From: Candidatus Methylomirabilis sp.
GTDB taxonomy: Bacteria > DYJV01
Reading direction: 5' to 3'
Length of the DNA: 23,222 nucleotides
NCBI GenBank assembly: GCA_020722945.1
Contig: DYJV01000038.1
Span: 1-23,222, forward strand
In this document: piece after piece, positions 7,564-22,903 of the stretch
Numbering within the stretch: position 1 is the stretch's first letter
Layout of the letters: each line of letters opens with the position of its first letter
Position numbers and translations under genes: made by a program
Notes under the pieces: model-generated
Told to the model about the DNA's origin: nothing
What the model saw: only the letters and a program-made list of their open reading frames with translations
Databases searched by the model: none

Positions 7564-10500
7564 TTGAGAGATATATTATCTTTATTTGAAAAACCTAAAG
7601 ATCCTCGAGTATTTAAAGCTGTTAAGATCAGTTTGGCTTCTCCTCAGACTATAAAAGAGTGGTCTTTCGGCGAGATAAAGAAGCCTGAGACTATAAATTA
7701 CCGAACTTTCAGACCTGAAAGGGATGGTCTTTTCTGTGCAAAGATATTTGGACCTGTTAAAGATTTTGAGTGTAACTGTGGCAAATATAAAAGGATGAAA
7801 CATAGAGGTATTGTATGTGAGAAGTGTGGAGTTGAAGTTATTCAGTCCAAAGTAAGAAGGTATAGGATGGCACATATAGAGCTTGCTACTCCTGTGGCTC
7901 ATATATGGTATTTTAAAAATCAACCTTGCAGAATAGGAGTTCTTCTTGGAATGTCTTTGAAAGAGGTTGAGAAAATTCTATATTACGATGGATATGTTGT
8001 GCTTGACCCGGGAGAAACACCTCTGAAGTATGGTCAGATATTGTCAGAAGAGCAATATGATGAAAATTTTGCCAATTATCCCGGAAAATTCAGAGCAGAG
8101 ATGGGAGCTGCTGCTATTAAAGAGATGCTTCAGAATCTGAATCTCGAAGAGATGACTTTTAAACTCAGGACAGAGCTTGGAGAAACCAAATCAGAAACAA
8201 AGCAGAGAAATATTATTTCAAAATTAAAGATAGTTGAGGCATTTGTTAACTCCAAAAATAAGCCTGAATGGATGATACTTGATGTTGTTCCTGTTATCCC
8301 CCCTGATCTTAGACCTCTTGTGCCTCTTGAGGGTGGAAGGTTTGCAACTTCTGATCTAAATGATCTTTATAGAAGATTAATAAATAGGAACAATCGACTA
8401 AAAAGACTTTTAAGTTTGAATGCTCCAAACATAATTATAAATAACGAAAAAAGGATGCTTCAGGAGGCTGTTGATGCCCTCTTTGATAACACAAAAAGGG
8501 AGCGTCCGATTATTGGTTCAAATAAGAAACCTCTAAAATCACTCTCCGAAATTATCAAAGGGAAGCAGGGTAGATTTAGGCAAAATCTTCTTGGTAAAAG
8601 GGTTGATTACTCTGGAAGGTCTGTTATTGTTGTTGCACCAGATCTTAAGTTACACGAATGTGGTTTACCTAAAAAGATGGCTTTAGAGTTATTTAAACCA
8701 TTCATATTTAACAAACTCATAGAGAAGGGTCATGTCCAGTCTATGAAGACTGCAAAAAAATATGTAGAGATGGGTAATCCTGAAGTTTGGGATGCTCTTG
8801 AAGAGGTTATAAAACAGCACCCTGTTTTACTTAACCGAGCACCTACTTTGCACAGACTTGGTATTCAAGCTTTTGAACCTGTCTTATCAGAGGGTAAAGC
8901 GATAAGACTTCACCCACTTGTTTGTGCTGCATTTAATGCTGACTTTGACGGTGACCAGATGGCAGTGTATGTTCCACTATCTTATGAAGCACAGATAGAG
9001 GCAAGGACTCTTATTATGGCTACAAACAATGTCTTGCTGCCTGCTAATGGTAAGCCAGTAGTGGTTCCGAGTCAAGATATTGTATTAGGATTATACTACC
9101 TTACTTCTCAAAGGGAGTTCGATAAAGGTGAGGGGCTATTTTTCGGTTCACTTGAAGAGGCAATAGTTGCTTACGATATGGGTCAAGTAGGCCTTCAAGC
9201 AAAGATAAAGGTCAGACTTGATGATAAAATTTACGATACAGTTATGGGCAGGTTGCTTGTTTATGAAATTACTCCTAAAAAAATAGGTTTTGATGCAGTC
9301 AATAAAGTCTTAAAGAAAAAGATAATTGCTAAATTGATAGACGAAATATACAGGGTTGCTGGTCTTAGAGATACGGTTGTTTTTGTAGATCAGATTAAAA
9401 ATTTAGGTTACAAATATGCTACAAAAGCGGGAATATCTATCTGTATAGATGACCTTGAAATACCTAAGGAGAAGCAGGAAATTCTTGATTTTACAATTAA
9501 TCAGGTTCAAAATATAGAGAATGAATATAGAGAAGGTTACATAACACAAGGTGAACGATACAACAAAATAATAGATACATGGCAAAGCACAACTGACCAG
9601 ATAGCAAAGAAGATGATGGTCAATATTGCTTCAAAAGAGTATGTATCTCAAGACAACAAGATCAAGAGAGTAGGGAATAGTTTTAACTCAATATTTATTA
9701 TGGCAGATTCTGGTGCAAGGGGTAGTGAAAACCAAATGAGGCAACTTGCAGGGATGAGGGGTTTGATGGCAAAGCCTTCTGGGGAGATAATAGAAACCCC
9801 TATTATTGCTAACTTTAGAGAAGGGTTGAATGTTCTTCAATACTTTATCTCTACTCACGGTGCAAGGAAAGGTTTGGCTGACACTGCTTTGAAAACTGCA
9901 AATGCTGGTTATCTTACAAGGAGGCTTGTTGATGTTGCTCAAGATGCCTTTATTGTTGAATCTGATTGTGGAACTCTTGATGGTATAGAGGTTGAATCAC
10001 TTGTAGAGGGTGGTGAAATCATAGAGACTGTTGGTTCGAGAGTTCTTGGAAGGACAGCTCTTTACGATATATTAGACCCTCATTCAGGTAATGTTATTGT
10101 AAGTGCAAATCAGCTTATTGATGAGGAAGCTGCCAAATTGATAGATGAAAAGGGTATCAATAAGGTAAATATCAGATCTGCTCTTACTTGTGCATCTGTG
10201 AAGGGTGGAGTTTGCTCTTTATGTTATGGACGAGATCTTGCAAGGGGAAGCATGGTTGAGATAGGTGAGCCTGTTGGTGTAATTGCCGCACAGTCGATAG
10301 GTGAGCCGGGGACTCAGCTTACAATGAGAACTTTCCATATTGGTGGGACAGCAAGTGCAACCACTGAGCAGAGCAGTCTTGAAGCTCACAAAGATGGTGT
10401 TGTTAAATATGTAGATCATCATTTTGTTGTAAATGATAAGGGTCAGGTGATAGTTATGACCCGACATGCAAAATTATTACTCCTTGATGAGTTGGGCAGA

Positions 10501-11682
10501 GAGATAGAGAAGAACAATCTTGTCTATGGTGCGAGACTTTTCTTTAATGATGGGGAGAGTGTTAAGAAGGGTGATAAACTTGCTGAGTGGGATCCTTTTA
10601 CTGTCCCTATTATCACAGAAGTTACTGGTAGAATTAAATTTGGTGATATTTTTGAAGGTATTACAATACAAGAGCAGGTAGATGAAGTTACCAAACTTGT
10701 TACCAAAAAGGTTATTGATTATAAAGACCCAAATTTAAGACCAAGGATATCAATAAAAGATGAAAATGGTAAAACGGCTAAACTCCCAGATGGGAAAACT
10801 CTTGCCAGATACCCTTTACCAGTAAATGCAGTCATTAATGTTGAAGAGGGCTCTTTTATCTCTGCTGGGACAGTAATTGCTAAAATACCAAGAGAAACAA
10901 CCAAAACAAAAGATATTACCGGAGGTCTTCCAAGAGTTGAAGAGCTTTTTGAAGCAAGAATCCCAAAAGATTTTGCAATAATAAGTGAAATTGAAGGTAG
11001 GGTATCATTTGGAAAGATTACAAAGGGGAAAAGGAAGGTAATTATCACACCTGAGGTTGGTGAACCTATGGAGTATCTAATCCCTAAAGGGAAATACATT
11101 ACTGTTCGTGAAGGTGAATATATACAAGCGGGTGAGGCACTTATGGATGGAGCACTTAACCCACATGATATCCTTAAAGTTAAGGGGGTCAAGGAGCTTG
11201 CTAAGTATCTTGTAAATGAGGTTCAGGAGATTTACAAACTTCAGGGTGTTGAAATAAACGACAAGCATATAGAAGTTATTGTAAGACAGATGTTAAGAAA
11301 AGTAGTCATTAAAAATTCTGGGAATAGCAACTTCCTCAATGGTGATCTAGTAGAAAAGGTTACATTTGAAGAGGAGAATAGAAGAGTTATGATGGAAGGT
11401 AAAGAGCCTGCAAGGGGGGAGACAGTGTTGCTTGGTATTACTAAAGCTGCATTGAATACTGATAGTTTTATATCGGCTGCTTCATTCCAAGAAACAACAA
11501 AAGTTCTTACTCAGGCTGCTATTGAAGGAAAGGTAGATAACCTCTACGGTTTAAAAGAGAATGTTATCATGGGAAGACTTATACCCGTTGGAACAGGTGT
11601 TAGAAAATACAACAAAATAGAACTTGTTGGTGTTGATAACTCTTTTGACGAAGAGAAAGAGGAGAGTGAAGAGTCAATTTAA
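7564..11682 (+). CDS. rpoC: DNA-directed RNA polymerase subunit beta' (TTG start)
   Basis: This is the catalytic beta' subunit, 1372 residues. The N-terminal zinc ribbon cysteines are C70, C72, C85 and C88. The magnesium-binding loop NADFDGDQM lies at 458-466 with D460, D462 and D464, the same numbering as E. coli. The second zinc site (CGTLDG, then [12 protein letters not shown]) and the bridge-helix/trigger-loop motif [19 protein letters not shown] are present. The tail is acidic ([10 protein letters not shown]). TTG 7564 follows AAGGGGG by 5 nt and gives the family N-terminus. The gene is followed after 25 nt by thi4 without a visible terminator. Confidence 0.98.
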
Positions 11683-11707
11683 TAATAAACCTAATTGGAG
11701 TTTGGCT

Positions 11708-12481
11708 ATGTTAGATGAACTAATTATCACCAGAGCTATAATAGATAGATTTATTGAGAAATTCAAAAGTTGTTTAGACCTTGATGTTGCCATTGTTGGT
11801 GGTGGTCCTGCTGGTTTAGTTGCTGGTTACTATCTTGCAAAAAATAACATCAGAGTTGCAATGTTTGAAAAGAAGTTGAGTATTGGTGGCGGTATGTGGG
11901 GCGGTGGTATGATGTTTAATGAGATAGTTGTCCAAGAGGATGGTAGGTTTATATTAGATGAATTTAACATCAATTATTCAAGGTATGAGGATGGTTACTA
12001 TACTGCTGATTCAATAGAGTCTGTATCAGCACTTACCAACAGCTCTGTAAGAGCAGGGTTAAAGATATTTAACTGTGTTTCTGTTGAAGATGTTGCTGTA
12101 AGGGAAGATGGTGTTGCAGGTCTTGTAATCCAATGGAGTCCTGTTGAAATGGCAAAATTACATGTTGATCCACTTGTTATAAAATCAAAATTTGTCATTG
12201 ATGCAACAGGTCACGATTCTAACATTGTTGAGATTGTCCAGAAAAAATGTGAAGGGAAGCTTTTTACTAAAACAGGGAATATTGTTGGAGAGAGATCTCT
12301 ATGGGCTGAAGTTGGTGAAAAGACCACAGTTGACAACAGCAAAGAAGCTTATCCTAATCTTTATGTTGCAGGTATGGCAGCAAATAATGTCTTTGGTAGT
12401 AACAGAATGGGTCCTGTATTTGGAGGGATGCTACTTTCTGGGAAGAAAGTTGCTGAAGATATAATCAATAAATTAAAATAA
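11708..12481 (+). CDS. thi4: Sulfide-dependent thiazole synthase, Thi4 family
   Basis: Thi4 makes the adenylated thiazole precursor of thiamin from NAD, glycine and a sulfur source. The 257-residue protein has a dinucleotide-binding GGGPAG motif (31-36), the signature [10 protein letters not shown] (60-69), DATGHD (165-170) and the C-terminal [11 protein letters not shown] (231-241). Plant and yeast enzymes carry a sacrificial cysteine before the MDP motif; the aligned residue here is His152 (LHVDP). This is the pattern of archaeal and anaerobic bacterial enzymes that use free sulfide and turn over repeatedly. ATG 11708 follows TTGGAG by 7 nt. A reading frame continuing upstream to 11624 would invade rpoC and is rejected. 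First gene of the thi cluster, 25 nt after rpoC. Confidence 0.93.
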
Positions 12482-12500
12482 TCTGATTCACCATTAATTT

Positions 12501-12543
12501 TAAGGGGCTGTTTATGATTTTTACAATCATCAATAGCCTCTTA
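12501..12543 (+). terminator. Long hairpin in the thi4-thiD2E gap, possible attenuator
   Basis: The arms TAAGGGGCTGTTTATGATT (12501-12519) and 12525-12543 pair over 19 positions with one mismatch and two G·T pairs around a 5-nt loop. No clean T tract follows directly (ACTTTATATCTG, then TTGATTTTTTC at 12555-12565). The structure could stop part of the transcription arriving from rpoBC-thi4, or stabilise the upstream mRNA end. The rest of the 132-nt gap shows no TPP riboswitch consensus (no CTGAGA with a matching second helix) and no convincing promoter. Confidence 0.5.
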
Positions 12544-12613
12544 CTTTATATCTGTTGATTTTTTCTTAATCTAAACTGAAAGAAAACCTCATATTTTAGA
12601 AAAGATTCGTTAA

Positions 12614-13660
12614 ATGAGATATATTAGGATAATTGATGCAAATATAAACAGATCTGCAGAAGGTTTGCGGATATTAGAGGAGATATTCAGGTTTATCTAT
12701 GACGATATTTCTATATCAGAACGCCTCAAATTCATTAGGCATGAAGTAAGAGAGTTATCCAAAAATTTACCTTTATCTCAATTTAGAGAATCTGCAACTG
12801 ATGTTGGCAAAGATAGTGCTGCTATTTCTGAGATGAAACGAGAAAGTATCGCTGATATCCTTAATGCTAACCTTAAAAGAGTTGAGGAGAGTTTTAGGGT
12901 TCTTGAAGAGTTTTTTAAGATTGATGATAAAAGGATGAGCTCAGCGTTTAAAAAACTTCGATTTCAGATATACTCACTTGAACAAGATATTTTTTCAATT
13001 AAGAGAAGATTCAGAGATATATTCTCACTAAACAAAGTTCTTTACGGGATAATTGATACAAGGTTTTCAAATAAATCTCACAAAGTTATATGCTCTTCAC
13101 TCATTGAAGGTGGAGTCAAAATAATTCAACTCAGAGAGAAAATTCTTGATGATAGACAACTTTTATCTACTGCATCTGAAATTGCAAAAATATGCAAAGA
13201 TAATGGTGTTATCTTTATAGTCAATGATAGGGTTGATATAGCAATTCTATCTGATGCAGATGGTGTTCATCTTGGACAGAGTGATATTGATATTTTAGAT
13301 GCAAGAAGGATACTTGGGAGTAACAAAATTATTGGTGTATCTACCCATAATCAACAGCAGGTTGAACAAATTGTTCCGTATAATCCTGATTACATAGGAT
13401 TTGGTCCTATTTTTACTACAAATAGCAAGGAGAATCCTGATCCTGTTGTTGGAGTAGAGCTGCTTGCAAAAATTAAAGCATTATATCAAGATTTACCTAT
13501 TGTTGCCATTGGTGGAATAAATCTTGATAATTTTAATAAAGTTATTAACTCCAATCCTGAAATGATAGCTGTTTTGAGTGGCATAGTAGGCAAAGATGAT
13601 ATTGCCGGAGAGGTAAAAAAATATAGGAGTTTGATGGATGACACAGTTAGAGTATGCTAA
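12614..13660 (+). CDS. thiE: Fused HMP-P kinase (ThiD2) / thiamin phosphate synthase (ThiE)
   Basis: This is a two-domain protein of 348 residues. Residues 1 to about 130 resemble the helical ThiD2 family (IDANINRSAEGLRILEEIFRF at the start, then a second helix pair ESFRVLEEFFK), a monofunctional HMP-phosphate kinase. Residues about 140-342 are a ThiE TIM barrel with QLREK (172-176), NDR (204-206), DGVHLGQSD (216-224), STHN (243-246), GFGPIF (262-267) and AIGGI (298-302). These bind HMP-PP, thiazole phosphate and magnesium. It should therefore phosphorylate HMP-P and join it to the thiazole to give thiamin phosphate. The ribosome site before ATG 12614 is weak. The stop overlaps thiC by 23 nt. 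The ThiD2 assignment rests on sequence resemblance recalled from the family. Confidence 0.9.
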   Translation: MRYIRIIDANINRSAEGLRILEEIFRFIYDDISISERLKFIRHEVRELSKNLPLSQFRESATDVGKDSAAISEMKRESIADILNANLKRVEESFRVLEEFFKIDDKRMSSAFKKLRFQIYSLEQDIFSIKRRFRDIFSLNKVLYGIIDTRFSNKSHKVICSSLIEGGVKIIQLREKILDDRQLLSTASEIAKICKDNGVIFIVNDRVDIAILSDADGVHLGQSDIDILDARRILGSNKIIGVSTHNQQQVEQIVPYNPDYIGFGPIFTTNSKENPDPVVGVELLAKIKALYQDLPIVAIGGINLDNFNKVINSNPEMIAVLSGIVGKDDIAGEVKKYRSLMDDTVRVC

Positions 13661-14921
13661 AAAGGATCAAATCAGTAATCAGATGGTAATTGTTTCTGAG
13701 GATGAGCGTGTAGATGTTCAAGTTTTAAAAGAGGATATAAAATCTGGAACGGTTGTTATTCCAGCTAATATAAATCATAAATCACTTCATCCAAAGGGTA
13801 TTGGAAAAGGTCTGACTACAAAGGTAAATGTAAATCTTGGGACATCAAAAGATAGAGAAGATTTTGATCTTGAGCTGAGGAAGCTTGATATCTCTATCAA
13901 ATATGGTGCTGATGCTGTGATGGATTTAAGCACTGGTGATAATCTAAACAGTATAAGGAAGATCATTATAGATAAATCTACTATTCCAGTAGGGACAGTC
14001 CCTATCTATCAGGCTGCTGTGAAGAGTGTCAAAGATTACGGTTTCATTGGGAAAATGAGCAGGGCACTCCTTTTTGAAGTTATTGAAGAGCAGTGTGAAG
14101 AAGGGGTTGATTTTATTACTGTTCACTGTGGAGTTAATCAGAGTTCAGTAGAGAGATTAAAAAACCAGAAAAGATTGACAAATGTTGTAAGCAGAGGTGG
14201 CTCTTTCCTTGTTGAATGGATGATTTACAACAACAAAGAGAATCCTTTGTATGAATATTACGACGATCTTTTAAAGATAGTTAAAAAAAATGATGTAACA
14301 TTAAGTCTTGGAGATGGGATGCGTCCCGGCTGTCTTGCTGATGCTACTGACAGAAGCCAGATTCATGAGTTAATAACTCTCGGTGAATTGACCAAAAGAG
14401 CTTGGGAGAGTGGAGTTCAAGTTATGATAGAGGGACCAGGTCATGTTCCGATAGATCAGATTGAGATGAATATAAAACTTGAAAAATCTTTGTGTAACGG
14501 TGCCCCTTTTTATGTTTTGGGCCCACTTGTTACTGATATAGCACCCGGATACGACCATATTACATCTGCAATAGGTGGAGCAATTGCAGCATGGCATGGA
14601 GCGGATTTCCTATGCTACGTGACTCCTGCTGAACATTTGAGACTCCCTGATGAAAATGATGTAAAAGAGGGACTTATTGCTTCAAAAATTGCTGCACATT
14701 CAGGTGATATTGGGAAGAGGATAAAAGGTGCGAAAGATAAAGATAATATGATGGCAAATTTTAGGAGAGATTTTGATTGGGAAAACCAAATAAATATAAG
14801 CCTTGATCCTCACAAAGCCAGAGAATACAGAGATTCTATAAGTTTAAATGATAAAGAAGTTTGCAGTATGTGTGGTGAATATTGTGCTGTAAAAAAGGTA
14901 AAGAAATTCTTTTCTGAATAA
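13638..14921 (+). CDS. thiC: Phosphomethylpyrimidine (HMP-P) synthase ThiC
   Basis: ThiC is a radical-SAM iron-sulfur enzyme that rearranges aminoimidazole ribotide into HMP phosphate, the pyrimidine half of thiamin. The 427-residue protein is the shorter form common in anaerobes, lacking the long N-terminal domain of E. coli or plant ThiC. Typical stretches are present: YGADAVMDLSTGDN, VGTVPIYQA, LGDGMRPGC and EGPGHVPIDQIEMN. The cluster cysteines are at the C-terminus, C409, C412 and C416 (CSMCGEYC), spaced CX2CX3C rather than the CX2CX4C of E. coli-type enzymes. ATG 13638 has AGGAG (13625-13629) 8 nt upstream, inside the end of thiE, so the genes are translationally coupled. Confidence 0.96.
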   Translation: MTQLEYAKKDQISNQMVIVSEDERVDVQVLKEDIKSGTVVIPANINHKSLHPKGIGKGLTTKVNVNLGTSKDREDFDLELRKLDISIKYGADAVMDLSTGDNLNSIRKIIIDKSTIPVGTVPIYQAAVKSVKDYGFIGKMSRALLFEVIEEQCEEGVDFITVHCGVNQSSVERLKNQKRLTNVVSRGGSFLVEWMIYNNKENPLYEYYDDLLKIVKKNDVTLSLGDGMRPGCLADATDRSQIHELITLGELTKRAWESGVQVMIEGPGHVPIDQIEMNIKLEKSLCNGAPFYVLGPLVTDIAPGYDHITSAIGGAIAAWHGADFLCYVTPAEHLRLPDENDVKEGLIASKIAAHSGDIGKRIKGAKDKDNMMANFRRDFDWENQINISLDPHKAREYRDSISLNDKEVCSMCGEYCAVKKVKKFFSE

Positions 14922-15112: not shown

Positions 15113-15316
15113 TTATTTCCAGACCTCAATAACCACATCTGGGCAGATATTGGCACACATTCCGCACCCTACACATTTACTGATGTCGGTTATTTCGATG
15201 TATTGGTATCCTTTTAGATTTATTTTGTTGGTTAGTTGTATTATTGATTGGGGACAGGCTGTTGTGCATAGACTACAACCTTTGCATCTGTTTATATTTA
15301 TTTTAACTTCAGGCAT
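15113..15316 (-). CDS. 2[4Fe-4S] ferredoxin, KorD/oxidoreductase delta-like
   Basis: This is a 67-residue soluble electron carrier with two complete cluster motifs: C11-C14-C17 with C21-Pro, and C48-C51-C54 with C58-Pro. The insertion between the motifs and the overall form (INRCKGCSLCTTACP, then CVGCGMCANICP) resemble the delta subunit of 2-oxoacid:ferredoxin oxidoreductases (KorD/VorD). No other oxidoreductase subunit is present in the window. Its ATG overlaps the dxs stop by 8 nt, with AAGGAG 7 nt upstream inside dxs, so it is translated as part of the isoprenoid operon. Possible partners are the iron-sulfur enzymes IspG/IspH of the MEP route, the nearby ThiC, or a distantly encoded oxoacid oxidoreductase; the sequence does not decide. 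Confidence 0.93.
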   Translation of the reverse strand: MPEVKININRCKGCSLCTTACPQSIIQLTNKINLKGYQYIEITDISKCVGCGMCANICPDVVIEVWK

Positions 15317-17180
15317 CTAAAGCTCCTTCTATCTCTTTTTTTATATTTTCTGTGCTCAAACCGTATCTCTCTCTAAGATATTTCTGAGAACCATGTTCCA
15401 CAAATATATTATCTATACCGATTATCTTAAACAATTTAAAATCTAAAATCCCTTTTCGTGATGCAAATTCAAGGATAGCACTTCCAGCACCACCTGCTGT
15501 AACATTCTCCTCAACAACGATTACTTTTTTAAATTTGAGAAGTTTCTCCTGAAGTAGCTCTTCGTCGAGTGGCTTAATAAATCGGAGGTTTATCAGCTCT
15601 ATTTGGTTTTGGAATGGTTCTGCTGCTTTTATTACATTCTCAAATATATGTCCAACTGAAATTAAGAGAAGATTCTCTCCATTTGAGATTACTTCACTTC
15701 TGCCAATCTCAATTGGCTGAGGAGTTTTAGGATTGTAAATTGAATCATCAGAACACCCTCTCGGATATCTTATTGCAATTGGAGATTTTACTTTTGTGGC
15801 AAAAGTAATCATATCTTTTAACTCGGTTTGGTTTTTGGGAGCCATAATAATAAAATTAGGGATATGTCTAAGATATGATATATCAAATACTCCATGATGG
15901 GTAGGACCATCTTCGCCGACAATTCCTGCTCTATCCAGAGCAAAAATTATATGTAAATTTTGTAATGCAACATCGTGTAAAAGCATATCGTAAGCTCTCT
16001 GCAAGAAAGTTGAATATATTGCAACAACAGGTATAAATCCTTGTGTTGCCAATCCTGCTGCAAATGTAACACAATGCTGCTCTGAAATTCCGCAGTCAAA
16101 AAATCTGTCAGGGAAATTTTTTGAAAATTTTTCAAGTCCTGTGCCTGAGGGCATTGCTGCTGTAATTGCAACAATTTTACTATCGTTGGCTGCTAAATGT
16201 GTAATTATATCTGAAAAAGCTTCTGTGTAAGTTGTGCAGTTTGACTTGTGTTTGTTGTCACCGGTTTCGATGGTAAAAGAGCCTATGCCATGAAATTTGG
16301 TAGGCTGATTCTCAGCAGGAGAGTAACCTTTACCTTTTTTGGTATAAACATGTATTAATATCGGTTTGTTGTGTGATTTGATATTTTCGAAAGTTTCAAG
16401 CAGGACATCTATATTGTGCCCATCAATTGGACCTACATATTCGTATCCAAGCTCTTCAAATATTACTCCTGGTGGTATTACAAAACCTTTAACACTTGCT
16501 TCGGTATGCTTCATAAATTTGAGTATCTGATCCCCTACGCTTGGGATGAGCTGGATGGTTTTCTTAAAATCTTCCCTCAATCTTGTAAATATCTTTCCTG
16601 TCAATATTTTACTAAGGTATGATGACAATGCCCCTACATTTTTGGAGATTGACATTTCGTTGTCATTAAGGATGATTATTAAGTCTTTGTCAATTGAGCC
16701 AGCAAGATTGAGCCCTTCAAATGCTATCCCGGCGGTCAGAGAACCATCTCCAATTACTGAAATAACTTTGAATTTCTCATTTTTTATATCTCTGGCAACA
16801 GCCATTCCGAGACCTGCTGAGATAGATGTGCTGCTGTGACCAGTATCGAAAGAGTCGTAAACGCTCTCTGATCTTTTTGGAAAGCCGCTTAATCCACCCT
16901 CTTTACGGATAGTTGGGAAGAGAGATCTCCTACCTGTAAGAATCTTGTGTGCATAACACTGATGTCCTACATCCCAGATGATTTTGTCGTTAGGGAGGTT
17001 AAATGAGTAGAGTAGAGCAATTGTTAATTCTATTGCACCAAGATTACTTGCGAGATGACCGCCATTGTTTGATATAGTGTTTATAATGGTATCTCGTAAC
17101 TCTTGTGCTAATTTGGGCAGGTCCCTGATATGTAATTTTTTGAAATCTTCGTAGCAATCTATTTTTGATAAAATTTCCAT
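15309..17180 (-). CDS. dxs: 1-deoxy-D-xylulose-5-phosphate synthase
   Basis: Dxs condenses pyruvate with glyceraldehyde 3-phosphate using thiamin diphosphate, the first step of the MEP isoprenoid pathway. The 623-residue protein is full length. GGHLASNLGA holds H42, DVGHQCYAHKILTGR holds H73, and the cofactor motif GDGSLTAG lies at 144-151 with LNDNEMSIS at 171-179. The transketolase pyrimidine-binding segment has DCGISEQHCVTFAAGLA, and HHGVFDISYLRHIPN follows. It starts 2 nt after the ispA stop and its end overlaps the ferredoxin start by 8 nt. In many bacteria Dxs also feeds thiazole synthesis; here the Thi4 route should make that unnecessary. Confidence 0.97.
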   Translation of the reverse strand: MEILSKIDCYEDFKKLHIRDLPKLAQELRDTIINTISNNGGHLASNLGAIELTIALLYSFNLPNDKIIWDVGHQCYAHKILTGRRSLFPTIRKEGGLSGFPKRSESVYDSFDTGHSSTSISAGLGMAVARDIKNEKFKVISVIGDGSLTAGIAFEGLNLAGSIDKDLIIILNDNEMSISKNVGALSSYLSKILTGKIFTRLREDFKKTIQLIPSVGDQILKFMKHTEASVKGFVIPPGVIFEELGYEYVGPIDGHNIDVLLETFENIKSHNKPILIHVYTKKGKGYSPAENQPTKFHGIGSFTIETGDNKHKSNCTTYTEAFSDIITHLAANDSKIVAITAAMPSGTGLEKFSKNFPDRFFDCGISEQHCVTFAAGLATQGFIPVVAIYSTFLQRAYDMLLHDVALQNLHIIFALDRAGIVGEDGPTHHGVFDISYLRHIPNFIIMAPKNQTELKDMITFATKVKSPIAIRYPRGCSDDSIYNPKTPQPIEIGRSEVISNGENLLLISVGHIFENVIKAAEPFQNQIELINLRFIKPLDEELLQEKLLKFKKVIVVEENVTAGGAGSAILEFASRKGILDFKLFKIIGIDNIFVEHGSQKYLRERYGLSTENIKKEIEGALDA

Positions 17181-17182
17181 TT

Positions 17183-18076
17183 TTAATTTACTCTTTTTAA
17201 TATGTATAGTGCTATTTCTTTTAAAAAAAGTGATCTTCCCCCTAAAAATGAGATACTATTTATTGCATTTTCAATGAGTATTGTGGCTATCTCTTTTGAT
17301 TTGTCAAGTCCAAATATTTTAGGGTAGGTAGATTTGTTGTTTTTGGAGTCACTACCACTTTTTTTACCCATATCTTCCAAAGAGCTTGTTATATCGAGTA
17401 TATCATCAACTATTTGGAAAGCAAGTCCTATATTTAGCCCATACTCCTCTATTTTTTTTAAAATATAGGGATCGTTTGTTGCAATGCGTGCTCCAGAGTA
17501 AACTGCTGCGGTTATCAGCATAGCTGTTTTGTGGATGTGAATGGTTTGTATGGTTTCAGAAGAGATATTGCTATTTTCGTAAAGTATATCGTAAATTTGT
17601 CCACCTACCATTCCTGAAGAGCCTGAAGATTTGGCAATAAAATTTGTGATATCGAGGATAGTATCGCTGTCTATGGATTTGTAAAATGATTTATTTGTAA
17701 GAATGTAAAAAGCATCTGTCAGAAGTGCATCCCCTGCCAAAATTGCAACAGCATCACCAAATACTTTATGATTAGTAAGCCGCCCTCTTCTGTAATCGTC
17801 ATTATCCATTGCTGGGAGATCATCGTGAATAAGTGAGTATGTATGAATAAATTCGATTGCTGCTCCTACATTAAGTGAATCTTGTTCGTTACCTCCAAGA
17901 GCTTGATTAGTGGAGTAAGTAAGTATTGGTCGTAATCTTTTGCCCCCTGCAAGAAGGCTGTATTGGATAGATTCTTTGAGCTTTGGTGGTGAAAAGATCA
18001 AAATATTATCAGAAAGATATTTGAGGTGATTCTCAAAAATGTTTTTTTGGGTTTTGAGGAGGGTGTCTATATCCAT
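17183..18076 (-). CDS. ispA: Polyprenyl (farnesyl-type) diphosphate synthase
   Basis: This trans-prenyltransferase adds isopentenyl units to allylic diphosphates, making farnesyl (possibly geranylgeranyl) diphosphate in the cytoplasm. In the 297-residue protein, GGKRLRP lies at 44-50. The first aspartate-rich motif DDLPAMD lies at 85-91 with the two-residue insert of bacterial IspA, followed by DDYRRG. The second aspartate motif DDILD lies at 224-228 (QIVDDILD), and the GSDSKNNKSTYP tail motif is present. The gap to xseB is 6 nt and to dxs 2 nt, the common xseB-ispA-dxs operon. Chain length cannot be fixed from sequence alone. Confidence 0.95.
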   Translation of the reverse strand: MDIDTLLKTQKNIFENHLKYLSDNILIFSPPKLKESIQYSLLAGGKRLRPILTYSTNQALGGNEQDSLNVGAAIEFIHTYSLIHDDLPAMDNDDYRRGRLTNHKVFGDAVAILAGDALLTDAFYILTNKSFYKSIDSDTILDITNFIAKSSGSSGMVGGQIYDILYENSNISSETIQTIHIHKTAMLITAAVYSGARIATNDPYILKKIEEYGLNIGLAFQIVDDILDITSSLEDMGKKSGSDSKNNKSTYPKIFGLDKSKEIATILIENAINSISFLGGRSLFLKEIALYILKRVN

Positions 18077-18420: not shown

Positions 18421-19641
18421 ATGAGAAGAAAATTTTTTATCTCTTTTTTAGTTTTTATGTTGTCTCTATTTATGTTTTCTTTAAGTTTGTCTGCAAAAAG
18501 TGTAAAGATAGGGTTTATTTATATTTTATCAGGACCTTTTGCCACATATGGTGATTTTGCCAAAAAAGGTGCACAGCTTGCCGTTGATGAGATAAATAAA
18601 TCTGGTGGAATACTTGGTAACCAAGTAGAGTGTATTTTTGAGGATAGTGCAGGTAAACCTGATGTTGCACTTAGAGCTATAAGGAAGCTTGTTTTACAAG
18701 ATAAAGTTGATATTCTTGTAGGTCTTGATTCAAGTGGAGTTGCAAATTCAGTTGTTCCTGTTATTGACCAGCTAAAAACACCCCTTATCATCACTCACGC
18801 AGCTTCACCTGAAGTTACAGGGAAGCTTTGTAACAAATATACATTCAGAATATCTGTAAATCTCCCACAAAATGTCAAAGCAGCAGCAATCCTTGCATCT
18901 GAGACAAATGCTAAAAAGTGGACGACTATAGGTCCGGGATACGCTTTTGGATTTGATTCGTGGAAATATTTTAAAGATTACCTAAAAAAGATAAAACCAT
19001 CATCAGAATTTTTCTCTGACGAGGAAGTTGTGTTTCCACCTGCAAAAACTACAGATTTTAGCCCATACATCACCAAAATTATGAATTCAAAGCCAGATGG
19101 AGTTTTAATATCTCTGTGGGGTGGGAATCTTGTTGATTTTGTGAGACAAGCAAATGATATGGGTTTCTTCAAACAGAAGTTTCAAGTTCTTATGACACTT
19201 GGTGCAGCTACAGAAGTATTGGATGCTCTTGGGGATAAGATGCCTGAGGGGATATGGGTTGGGACAAGATATTGGTTTAAAGCTAACGATTCTGACCTAA
19301 ATAAAAAATTTGTAGATAGTTATTTCAAAACTTACAACAAATATCCATCATACAATGCACATGGTGCATATTCTGCAGTTTATGCATTTAAAAAAGCTGC
19401 TGAAAAGTCTAAAAATCTTGACAAAGATTCTATTGTAAAGTCTCTTGAAGGTCTTGAGGTTGATCTCCCTCTTGGAAAGGTCACAATGAGAGCAGAAGAT
19501 CATCAAGCAGTCTCAAATGCAACATGGGGTAAAACAAAAATAACCAAAGATTTCCCATTTGCTATTTTGGATCCTGTGAGGATATTCCCTGCGGCTCAAG
19601 TTACACCACCTGTTGCTGAAACAGAGTGTAAACTTAAATAA
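18421..19641 (+). CDS. Periplasmic substrate-binding protein, Liv (branched-chain amino acid) ABC type
   Basis: This is the solute receptor of the ABC importer encoded by the next four genes. Residues 1-25 form a Sec signal peptide (MRRKFF, hydrophobic core, cleavage about at SLSA/KS). No cysteine lies at the cleavage site, so it is a soluble periplasmic protein rather than a lipoprotein. The mature part has the type I periplasmic fold signatures KIGFIYILSGPFATYGDFAKKGAQLAVDEIN (about 28-58) and the segment DFSPYITKIMNSKPDGVLI. The family transports leucine-type amino acids but also amides, urea and aromatic acids, so the ligand is unknown. The operon order binding protein - two permeases - two ATPases is canonical. 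Confidence 0.9.
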   Translation: MRRKFFISFLVFMLSLFMFSLSLSAKSVKIGFIYILSGPFATYGDFAKKGAQLAVDEINKSGGILGNQVECIFEDSAGKPDVALRAIRKLVLQDKVDILVGLDSSGVANSVVPVIDQLKTPLIITHAASPEVTGKLCNKYTFRISVNLPQNVKAAAILASETNAKKWTTIGPGYAFGFDSWKYFKDYLKKIKPSSEFFSDEEVVFPPAKTTDFSPYITKIMNSKPDGVLISLWGGNLVDFVRQANDMGFFKQKFQVLMTLGAATEVLDALGDKMPEGIWVGTRYWFKANDSDLNKKFVDSYFKTYNKYPSYNAHGAYSAVYAFKKAAEKSKNLDKDSIVKSLEGLEVDLPLGKVTMRAEDHQAVSNATWGKTKITKDFPFAILDPVRIFPAAQVTPPVAETECKLK

Positions 19642-19664
19642 ATTTTCTCTTTTAAGGTTTGCGA

Positions 19665-20525
19665 TTGGATACATTTTTTATTAATTGCCTTAATGGTTTA
19701 AGCTGGGGTATGCTTCTTTTTCTTATCTCTGCTGGGTTGTCGACAATTTTTGGAGTCATGGGTGTGTTAAATTTTGCCCATGGCTCTTTTTATATGCTTG
19801 GTGCATATTTTTGTATGCAGATAATGTTTTTTTCAGATAATTATTGGATAGGGCTCATACTATCACCTATTGCAGTTGCTATTTTTGGAGCATTGATAGA
19901 GAGAACCATCCTAAGACATGTTTATCAAAGAGATATTACATATCAGCTTCTTCTTACATTTGCTCTTCTTTTGATAGTTGATGATACGGTTAGGTTGATC
20001 TGGGGTGCGGGTTACTACCTTACAGAGCCGCCAGAGATACTTTCAGGTGTTATCAATGTTTTTGGACAATCATACTCACTTTATCGGATATTTTTGATTT
20101 TTATGGGTCCACTTGTTGCGATTGGACTACTTATATTTTTTCAAAAAAGCACATGGGGCAAAATTATCAGAGCAGCTTCAATGGACAGAGAGATGGCAGA
20201 AGGTTTAGGTATAAATGTTTCATTTATATATACTGCTGTTTTTGCTTTGGGCTGCTGGCTTGCTGGTGTAGGTGGGGCACTTGCAGCACCATTTCAGAGT
20301 ATCTCCCCTGCTATGGGTGAAAAGATAATAATAGAGAGTTTTATTGTTGTAGTTGTAGGTGGTCTTGGGAGTTTTCAGGGAGCTTTTTTGGGAGCACTAC
20401 TTCTTGGAGTGATGGAGGCTTTTGGGACTTCTATGGTAGGAGATATACAAATGGCACTTCCATATCTTTTACTTGCCATCATACTAATTTTTAGACCTAC
20501 AGGATTTTTTGGGAAAACCAGATGA
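19665..20525 (+). CDS. livH: Liv-type ABC transporter permease, LivH family (TTG start)
   Basis: This is one of the two membrane subunits of the importer, very hydrophobic with about eight predicted spans. It has the LivH pattern STIFGVMGVLNFAHGSFYMLGAY near the N-terminus and a C-terminal cytoplasmic-loop region EGLGINVSFIYTAVFALGCWLAGVGG. Two in-frame TTG codons are possible (19659 and 19665). The second is preferred because AAGG (19654-19657) lies 7 nt before it but only 1 nt before the first. The protein is then 286 residues. Its TGA overlaps the next ATG by four bases. The substrate is not determined by this subunit. Confidence 0.9.
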   Translation: MDTFFINCLNGLSWGMLLFLISAGLSTIFGVMGVLNFAHGSFYMLGAYFCMQIMFFSDNYWIGLILSPIAVAIFGALIERTILRHVYQRDITYQLLLTFALLLIVDDTVRLIWGAGYYLTEPPEILSGVINVFGQSYSLYRIFLIFMGPLVAIGLLIFFQKSTWGKIIRAASMDREMAEGLGINVSFIYTAVFALGCWLAGVGGALAAPFQSISPAMGEKIIIESFIVVVVGGLGSFQGAFLGALLLGVMEAFGTSMVGDIQMALPYLLLAIILIFRPTGFFGKTR

Positions 20526-21457
20526 AAAAGATACACATATTAATATTGATTGCTCTTTTACTACTTCTTCCACTATTTACGCCTGAATATTGGCTCTTTA
20601 TCTTTTGTGAAATACTTATAATGGGATTTTTTGCAACAAGTTTTAATCTACTGTTTGGTTATACAGGTCTGCTTTCATTTGGTCAGGCAGGGTTTTTTGG
20701 CATTGGAGCGTATAGTGTTGCTATACTCATCCAGAATGGTTTCTCTTTTATTCCACTACTCCTTTTTGCAGGGATGTTTTTTGCTGCTCTTGTATCAATA
20801 ATTGTAGGTGCACTTTCAGTCAGACACGATCAGATCTTTTTTGGAATGATAACACTTGCTTTTGGAATGATGCTCTACACCATTGCTCACAATTGGACAT
20901 CTTTTACAGGTGGAAGCGATGGATTAGCTATTGTAATGCTACCTTCTGTTAATATTTTTGGGAAAGAGCTTCTTTTATGTAATCCTCTCACCCTTTACTA
21001 TTTTAATCTTGCTATTGTAGTTCCCTCAATACTTCTATTATACATGATAACTGTATCACCCTTTGGACTTTTACTTAAAGGTATCAGAGAAAATAAAGAG
21101 CGTCTCTCTTTTTCAGGTGGTAATATCTCTATTATTAGATTGACAGCTTTTTTTATATCTTCAGCTTTTGCAGGACTTGCAGGTGCTCTTTATGCACTTT
21201 TTAGCAGTATGGCTACCCCTGAATTTCTTCACTGGGGATTCTCTGCCAAACCTGTCATAATATCTATTCTTGGGGGTTTTAATCTTTTTTTGGGTCCATT
21301 TTTAGGTTCTGCGATATTTTTTCTCCTCGAACAATTTGTCAGACAATATACAGATAGTTGGATGATTTTTCTTGGAGGAGTCCTTTTAATCATAGTTTTA
21401 TTTGCTCCTGAAGGGATTGCAGGTCTCGTAATCAAATTTTTTAAAAAGAGAGAGTAA
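20522..21457 (+). CDS. livM: Liv-type ABC transporter permease, LivM family
   Basis: The second membrane subunit of the importer has 311 residues, mostly hydrophobic helices. Family landmarks are FNLLFGYTGLLSFGQAGFFGIGAYSVA (about 41-67), FFGMITLAFGMML, WTSFTGGSDGL and the coupling-loop segment SPFGLLLKGIRENKERLSFSG (about 179-199). The start ATG overlaps the livH stop (ATGA), and its own TAA overlaps the livG ATG (TAATG), showing translational coupling through the operon. No lost or inserted segment is apparent. Confidence 0.93.
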   Translation: MKKIHILILIALLLLLPLFTPEYWLFIFCEILIMGFFATSFNLLFGYTGLLSFGQAGFFGIGAYSVAILIQNGFSFIPLLLFAGMFFAALVSIIVGALSVRHDQIFFGMITLAFGMMLYTIAHNWTSFTGGSDGLAIVMLPSVNIFGKELLLCNPLTLYYFNLAIVVPSILLLYMITVSPFGLLLKGIRENKERLSFSGGNISIIRLTAFFISSAFAGLAGALYALFSSMATPEFLHWGFSAKPVIISILGGFNLFLGPFLGSAIFFLLEQFVRQYTDSWMIFLGGVLLIIVLFAPEGIAGLVIKFFKKRE

Positions 21458-22224
21458 TGTCTAATACTATTTTAAAAATAGATAAGTTGAGCCACAGCTA
21501 TGGTAAATTTAAAGTAATAACAGACATCTCATTTGAAGTAGAAAAGGGTTGTATAACAGCTCTTATTGGCCCAAATGGTGCTGGCAAAACTACATTTTAT
21601 AATGCCATTTCTGGGAAATTTCCACCAACATCAGGTAGAGTGATATTTGATGGAATTGATATTACTGGTATGCCAGCATATAAGGTGGCAGATCTTGGAC
21701 TTGTTAGATCATTTCAAATAACTAATATTTTTAATAACTTATCTGTCCTTGATAATATATTGATTCCACTTATTTTGCACCACAAAAAGAGAAATAGCAT
21801 GCTTAAAAGTGTAGTATCTCACAAAGAGCTTATTAAAAAGGGTGAAGAGATTCTTGAACGATTATCTCTCTCTAAATTTTCAAAGAGAAAAGCATCTGAG
21901 CTTGCGTATGGAGATAAAAGGTTAATAGAGATAGGGATTGTTCTTGCAAGAGAGCCGAAGATGATACTTCTTGATGAACCTACGGCGGGGATGAATCCTG
22001 AAGAGACAGAAAGTATGATCAAGCTCATTAAAGAGCTATCTATTATGAGTAAAACCACGCTATTTTTTACAGAACACGATATGAATTTTGTATTTAATGC
22101 TGCTTCATATATTTATGTTCTTCACCAAGGTGGTCTCCTTGCTTATGGGACACCTGAAGAGATAAAGAGTAATGAGCAAGTAAAGGAGGCTTATCTTGGC
22201 GGAAGCCTTTATTCTAAAAGTTGA
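21457..22224 (+). CDS. livG: Liv-type ABC transporter ATP-binding protein, LivG family
   Basis: This cytoplasmic ATPase of the importer has 255 residues. The Walker A motif GPNGAGKTT lies at 38-46, Q87 forms the Q-loop (RSFQ) and LAYGD (149-153) is the signature, the variant typical of LivG rather than LSGGQ. Walker B MILLDEP lies at 169-175 and the H-loop is H207. The insertion between Q-loop and signature, with NIFNNLSVLDN, is the usual family length. The last 29 nt overlap livF. It should pair with LivF to form the ATPase heterodimer. Confidence 0.94.
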   Translation: MSNTILKIDKLSHSYGKFKVITDISFEVEKGCITALIGPNGAGKTTFYNAISGKFPPTSGRVIFDGIDITGMPAYKVADLGLVRSFQITNIFNNLSVLDNILIPLILHHKKRNSMLKSVVSHKELIKKGEEILERLSLSKFSKRKASELAYGDKRLIEIGIVLAREPKMILLDEPTAGMNPEETESMIKLIKELSIMSKTTLFFTEHDMNFVFNAASYIYVLHQGGLLAYGTPEEIKSNEQVKEAYLGGSLYSKS

Positions 22225-22903
22225 AGATATACATGTTTATATAAATGAAAGTTATATTTTGCAAGGAGTTGATCTTGACCTCAGGCAGGGTGAGATAGTT
22301 GCACTACTTGGAAGAAATGGTGCAGGCAAGACGACTACTATCAGGAGTATTGCAGGATATTTAAAGCCTAAAAAGGGTAAAATAACTTTTAAAGAGACCG
22401 ATATTACTTCTCAACCTACTTACAAAAATGTCAGAGCAGGGATCGGTTTTGTTCCTGAAGATAGAAGGATATTTCCTGATCTTACAGTTGAGGAGAATCT
22501 GTCTATTGCCTCTTTTTATAATAGAAATGGTGAATGGAGTATTGAGAAGATTTTTGAGACTGTTCCCCTTATAAGTAAATTTAGAAAGAGAAAGGGTGGA
22601 GAGCTTAGCGGAGGTGAGCAGCAGATAGTTGCAATAGCAAGAGCTTTAGCCACAAATCCTGATCTTCTTTTACTTGATGAGCCTTGTGAAGGGCTTGCTC
22701 CTGTAATAGTTGAGAAGTTAGGGGAAATTATACTCTCATTAAAAAATAGGATCCCTATTCTTTTATCAGAGCAGAATGCTTACTTTGCTCTTGAAGTTTC
22801 TGATAGAGGTTATATCATTGATAAAGGCAGGATAAAATATCAAGGGACTTCATCTAACCTCAAATCTGACAAAGATGTCCAAAAGCGTTATCTTGCTGTG
22901 TGA
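22196..22903 (+). CDS. livF: Liv-type ABC transporter ATP-binding protein, LivF family (TTG start)
   Basis: The second ATPase of the importer has 235 residues. It shows Walker A GRNGAGKTT at 39-47, signature LSGGE at 137-141 (LSGGEQQIVAIARAL) and Walker B LLLLDEP at 157-163. EQNAYFAL replaces the H-loop histidine by glutamine, as is usual in LivF. TTG 22196 is chosen because AAGGAGG (22183-22189) lies 6 nt upstream, inside livG, and the next residues AEAFILKVEDIHVYINES match where the domain should begin. The overlap with livG is 29 nt. It is the last gene of the operon. Confidence 0.93.
   Translation: MAEAFILKVEDIHVYINESYILQGVDLDLRQGEIVALLGRNGAGKTTTIRSIAGYLKPKKGKITFKETDITSQPTYKNVRAGIGFVPEDRRIFPDLTVEENLSIASFYNRNGEWSIEKIFETVPLISKFRKRKGGELSGGEQQIVAIARALATNPDLLLLDEPCEGLAPVIVEKLGEIILSLKNRIPILLSEQNAYFALEVSDRGYIIDKGRIKYQGTSSNLKSDKDVQKRYLAV

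Follow-up and report, generated by a model that had tools for sequence, protein, structure and literature searches.

A probable Thi4-type thiamin route in two adjoining genetic units of a Candidatus Methylomirabilis genome

Introduction

Among the non-Cys THI4s, the closest described relatives of the thiazole enzyme presented here, the Thermovibrio ammonificans protein carries Met158 at the position of the sacrificial Cys, a His stands at this sulfur-donor position in 171 of 199 known members, and a non-Cys THI4 is able to work in air once sulfide is raised (PMC8454699). The THI4 product is adenylated carboxythiazole (ADT) and not thiazole phosphate (PMC8454699), the step between the two having been predicted for a Nudix hydrolase that was still unidentified (PMC4215014). 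ThiG-less pathways that depend on Thi4 only were described by Joshi et al. 2021 (PMC8454699), with Thi4 as the sole thiazole source and ThiC and ThiE in the genome. For the pyrimidine half, free HMP is not a substrate of ThiD2, which phosphorylates HMP-P (Thamm et al. 2017, cited in PMC12345177).

Here we analyse a stretch of 23,222 nucleotides (the window), which is contig C54 of a 2.51-Mb Candidatus Methylomirabilis assembly of 184 contigs, 98.1% complete with 5.8% contamination, in which absences are not absolute. It very likely encodes the known Thi4-type thiamin route as two adjoining genetic units, the gene functions being assigned from sequence similarity.

Results and discussion

The thi4 gene and its product

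A first-pass annotation of the window had named three adjacent genes, thi4, thiD2-thiE (thiD2E) and thiC, and all three were recovered at full length and as placed, with scores far beyond chance:

11708..12481, plus strand: thi4, predicted sulfide-type (non-Cys) ADP-thiazole synthase, 257 aa, start ATG at 11708 with GGAG ahead
12614..13660, plus strand: thiD2-thiE fusion, predicted HMP-P kinase (ThiD2) and thiamin phosphate synthase (ThiE), 348 aa
13638..14921, plus strand: thiC, predicted HMP-P synthase, radical SAM, 427 aa, with C-terminal CSMCGEYC

In a profile search Thi4 scored 330 bits against TIGR00292 (curated equivalog cut-off 148.3), with residues 6-257 on profile positions 3-254 of 254, the full length of the model, and it scored 272.8 bits against PF01946. 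The closest solved structure is 7rk0, the T. ammonificans THI4 (E 2.4e-98), and the Methanocaldococcus jannaschii THI4 (4y4n) also matches over its whole length (E 1.5e-68). Chain indices of 7rk0 agree with the published Met158, Asp160, His175, Arg58 and Arg239 (residue roles from PMC8454699). His152, within the motif LHVDP, aligns with Met158, leaving no Cys at the sulfur-donor position; a His replaces the sacrificial Cys, as in methanogen THI4s. Both metal ligands are kept, Asp154 and His169 being equivalent to Asp160 and His175 of the T. ammonificans enzyme, and Arg233 is kept in the alignment with 7rk0. The likeness to the non-Cys THI4s 7rk0 and 4y4n consists of the whole-length match, the Asp and His metal ligands and the Arg of the glycine-imine site, whereas the window protein differs from 7rk0 in having Lys56 in place of Arg58, and its gene stands behind rpoC. 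The Lys also occurs in the relatives G001, L048, L050 and L051, which are described below. With His152 and the metal ligands as its basis, the window Thi4 looks like the known catalytic, sulfide-using non-Cys type. LHVDP was also read in the Thi4 of G001 and in all 30 best Thi4 loci of another phylum, that of genome G032, where TIGR00292 Thi4 is present in 137 of 297 genomes.

The thiD2-thiE fusion and thiC

ThiD2-ThiE is a single frame without a stop, with PF17792 at residues 5-124 (128.7 bits) and PF02581 at residues 143-324 (202.6 bits), and it passes the fusion model NF002727 only just (340.3 against a cut-off of 335). It is full length and has the same domain order as the known ThiD2-ThiE bifunctional proteins (PRK02615/NF002727; PF17792), from which it shows no notable difference; one scan of genomes returned 117 relatives. 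The ThiE motifs QLREK, VND, GVHLGQSD and GVSTH align with the B. subtilis thiamin phosphate synthase, and the ThiE domain as a whole aligns end to end with that protein, standard in appearance and with no extra domain.

ThiC matches TIGR00190 at full length, with 639.9 bits against a cut-off of 460. The BzaB model TIGR04386 also matches over the full length, and on that ground the gene could be taken to serve B12 lower-ligand synthesis rather than thiamin; the score of 574 bits, however, lies under the BzaB cut-off of 700 whereas the TIGR00190 cut-off is far exceeded, this is the sole ThiC in the genome, and thiC overlaps thiD2E by 23 nt both here and, with an overlap of identical length, in G001. 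A BzaB role was rejected on the model cut-offs (TIGR04386 below, TIGR00190 above), and we regard it as barely conceivable.

Thiamin genes across the genome

Genome-wide absences rest on profile searches of the genome's contigs. There is no real ThiG in the genome, the best candidate being a partial match of 27.6 bits, nominally over the loose Pfam cut-off of 23 bits, where true ThiG proteins in other genomes reach 330-382 bits. ThiH is absent genome-wide (best score 24.3 against a cut-off of 380), and nothing in the genome passes the cut-off for ThiD (PF08543; best 23.4 against 27). The result that the first-pass annotation had itself named as telling against its reading, a full thiG/thiS/thiH set with a separate thiD, was thus looked for genome-wide by way of ThiG, ThiH and ThiD and not found. 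The genome holds one copy each of thi4, PF17792 (ThiD2) and thiC, the remaining PF01946 matches being short, Rossmann-type and at most 30.5 bits, and a single ThiL over the cut-off (231 against 184 bits) is encoded on contig C6, elsewhere in the genome as had been expected. It was also correctly noted that no thiF, thiS, thiG, thiH or thiO is named among the neighbours, which are ORFs of rpoB/rpoC size, dxs, an FPP-synthase-type gene and an ABC transporter. ThiS, ThiF and ThiO are unable to make thiazole without ThiG. Thi4 in place of ThiG, and ThiD2-ThiE and ThiC as described, were borne out by the cut-offs passed and by the genome-wide absence of ThiG.

Since no ThiG, ThiH or ThiD is convincingly present over its cut-off, the three genes are single copies and ThiL lies elsewhere, the organism in all likelihood has no other de novo route to thiamin than the one through these genes and ThiL. 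The value of the locus is that of a clean genome-wide case, in which the only detected route combines an apparently sulfide-type Thi4 with ThiD2-ThiE, ThiC and ThiL. This resembles the pathways of Joshi et al. 2021 (PMC8454699) in that Thi4 is the sole thiazole source and ThiC and ThiE are in the genome; the genomes selected in that study, however, all had ThiD, whereas in the window organism the predicted kinase is the ThiD2 half of the fusion and nothing passes the ThiD cut-off. Free HMP is probably not usable through a ThiD-type kinase in this organism, because no such kinase passes the cut-off.

Gene order, hairpin and regulation

Two further features bear on whether the genes form one module or two:

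7564..11682, plus strand: rpoC, ORF of 1372 aa, identified by position, size and its match in G001
12501..12543, plus strand: hairpin, 43 nt (12 bp and 6 bp), lying between thi4 and thiD2E

Upstream of thi4 are two ORFs of rpoB/rpoC size, named from position, size and the G001 match and not from hmmscan, and thi4 starts 25 bp after rpoC (gap 11683-11707). G001, the one relative compared (n = 1), is the MAG 'bacterium isolate T10_maxbin2_scaf2bin.187', from the same phylum and order and another family. Its RpoC ORF of 1376 aa is in the corresponding position, 30 bp before thi4 (L009:1447-1476), and a response regulator and a kinase come downstream of its thi4, the next gene beginning 3 bp after thi4 with no room for a hairpin. 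Its thiD2E-thiC pair is on a different contig from rpoC-thi4, where it is preceded by a gene whose product has a domain of the nitrate-reductase-delta type. In this sole relative compared the genes are split, which makes a conserved three-gene module doubtful.

In the window, the gap that separates thi4 from thiD2E has a fold z-score of -3.1. Its strong hairpin was not scored as a terminator by a consensus scan and matches no known RNA family, and since it occurs just once in the genome it was rejected as a repeat element; it is possibly a transcript end or a processing site. The split in G001, the 23-nt overlap kept in both genomes and the hairpin-bearing gap in the window make two units side by side the best reading: thi4 as the tail gene of the rpoBC cluster, followed by the overlapping thiD2E-thiC pair. 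No TPP riboswitch was found in the window, and none over threshold in the window genome or in G001, while the control search found it in ten well-known genomes.

A vitamin gene is tied to the RNA polymerase cluster in both genomes compared from the phylum, at an rpoC-thi4 spacing of 25-30 bp. In the phylum of G032, the 30 best Thi4 loci have neither rpoC nor ThiD2 within 1.5 kb, and a wide rpoC-thi4 linkage was rejected on this ground.

The three genes in other bacteria

One scan of named genomes yielded 80 ThiD2-carrying loci, with neighbours counted within the available stretches. ThiG was close by in 19 of these, mostly together with ThiC, and Thi4 in three (L048, L050 and L051), all from MAGs labelled Deltaproteobacteria (Deltaproteobacteria/Myxococcota). 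Like the window, these three carry thi4-thiD2E-thiC in one order and on one strand, with a His-type Thi4 and in genomes that lack a real ThiG; in L050 and L051, however, the genes overlap by 1-4 bp, without gap or hairpin, whereas thi4 and thiD2E of the window are separated by a gap. The trio is neither unique to the window nor tightest there. The earlier description of one of the smallest complete thiamin modules consequently loses its force, three MAGs having the same trio, tighter where readable, without ThiG.

In trees, ThiD2E groups moderately with the Myxococcota-type block (95/79) and ThiC does not. Common descent of the window trio and that block was dropped because ThiC groups elsewhere; with ThiC apart from theirs and ThiD2E moderately grouped, the trees weakly suggest that the layouts of the window and of L048, L050 and L051 may have arisen separately.

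In the phylum of G032, a ThiC match lies within 1.5 kb in 13 of the 30 best Thi4 loci, and ThiD2 in none.

ADT hydrolysis and the proposed pathway

The first-pass annotation had gone further and proposed that, starting from common metabolites and sulfide, the three genes suffice to make thiamin phosphate, with only ThiL or an equivalent kinase left to be encoded elsewhere. Their adjacency on one strand, the lack of ThiG and ThiD in the genome and the recurrence of the trio without ThiG in three other MAGs, the genes overlapping by 1-4 bp in the two that could be read fully, are what such a self-sufficient module would look like, but the Thi4 product is ADT (PMC8454699, PMC4215014) and a Pfam domain search found neither a Nudix nor any other ADT-hydrolase domain in the three block proteins. 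The split in G001 and the gap with a hairpin 3' of thi4 also argue against it. As Thi4 releases ADT, which needs cleavage before ThiE can use it, the claim of sufficiency is not supported: the three-gene block cannot be a complete pathway, an ADT hydrolase is still needed, and we consider self-sufficiency improbable.

Sufficiency could be regained if one of the block proteins, for instance the fusion through its ThiE domain, used or hydrolysed ADT itself. A second activity of this kind is compatible with the evidence, the hydrolase having been left without a name in PMC4215014, and it would, if true of the ThiE domain, fill the unassigned hydrolysis step of Thi4 pathways. That domain nevertheless looks like a standard one, matching B. 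subtilis ThiE from end to end with nothing added. Moreover, THI4s support an E. coli delta-thiG strain using the host's own enzymes (PMC8454699; support of delta-thiG likewise in PMC7555113), so that general hydrolases can probably cleave ADT, and an ADT-using block protein is highly improbable.

Under the preferred reading, the known Thi4-type route in two adjoining units, Thi4 would convert NAD, glycine and sulfide to ADT, the use of sulfide being predicted from His152 and the metal ligands, and ADT would then be cleaved to carboxythiazole phosphate by a hydrolase that is coded outside the block and is probably among the genome's five Nudix proteins. By homology, ThiC would convert AIR to HMP-P, the ThiD2 domain would phosphorylate HMP-P to HMP-PP, ThiE would join both halves to give thiamin phosphate, and ThiL, also coded elsewhere, would yield thiamin diphosphate. 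The five Nudix genes of the genome lie on other contigs (C83, C87, C104, C134 and C157); one product passes the cut-off for NAD+ diphosphatase and another is NudE-like. With five candidates only, the genome offers a small test bed for the ADT hydrolase; otherwise the window confirms a known pathway, with genes that are real and rightly named.

Downstream neighbours

Downstream of thiC, dxs and an FPP-synthase-type gene adjoin each other on the minus strand (15309-18076), facing the thi genes. As dxs stands beside an isoprenoid gene, it would need no link to thiazole synthesis. Beyond them, a five-gene ABC transporter on the plus strand (18421-22903) resembles urea/branched-chain amino acid systems but reaches none of the UrtA-E and Liv cut-offs listed.
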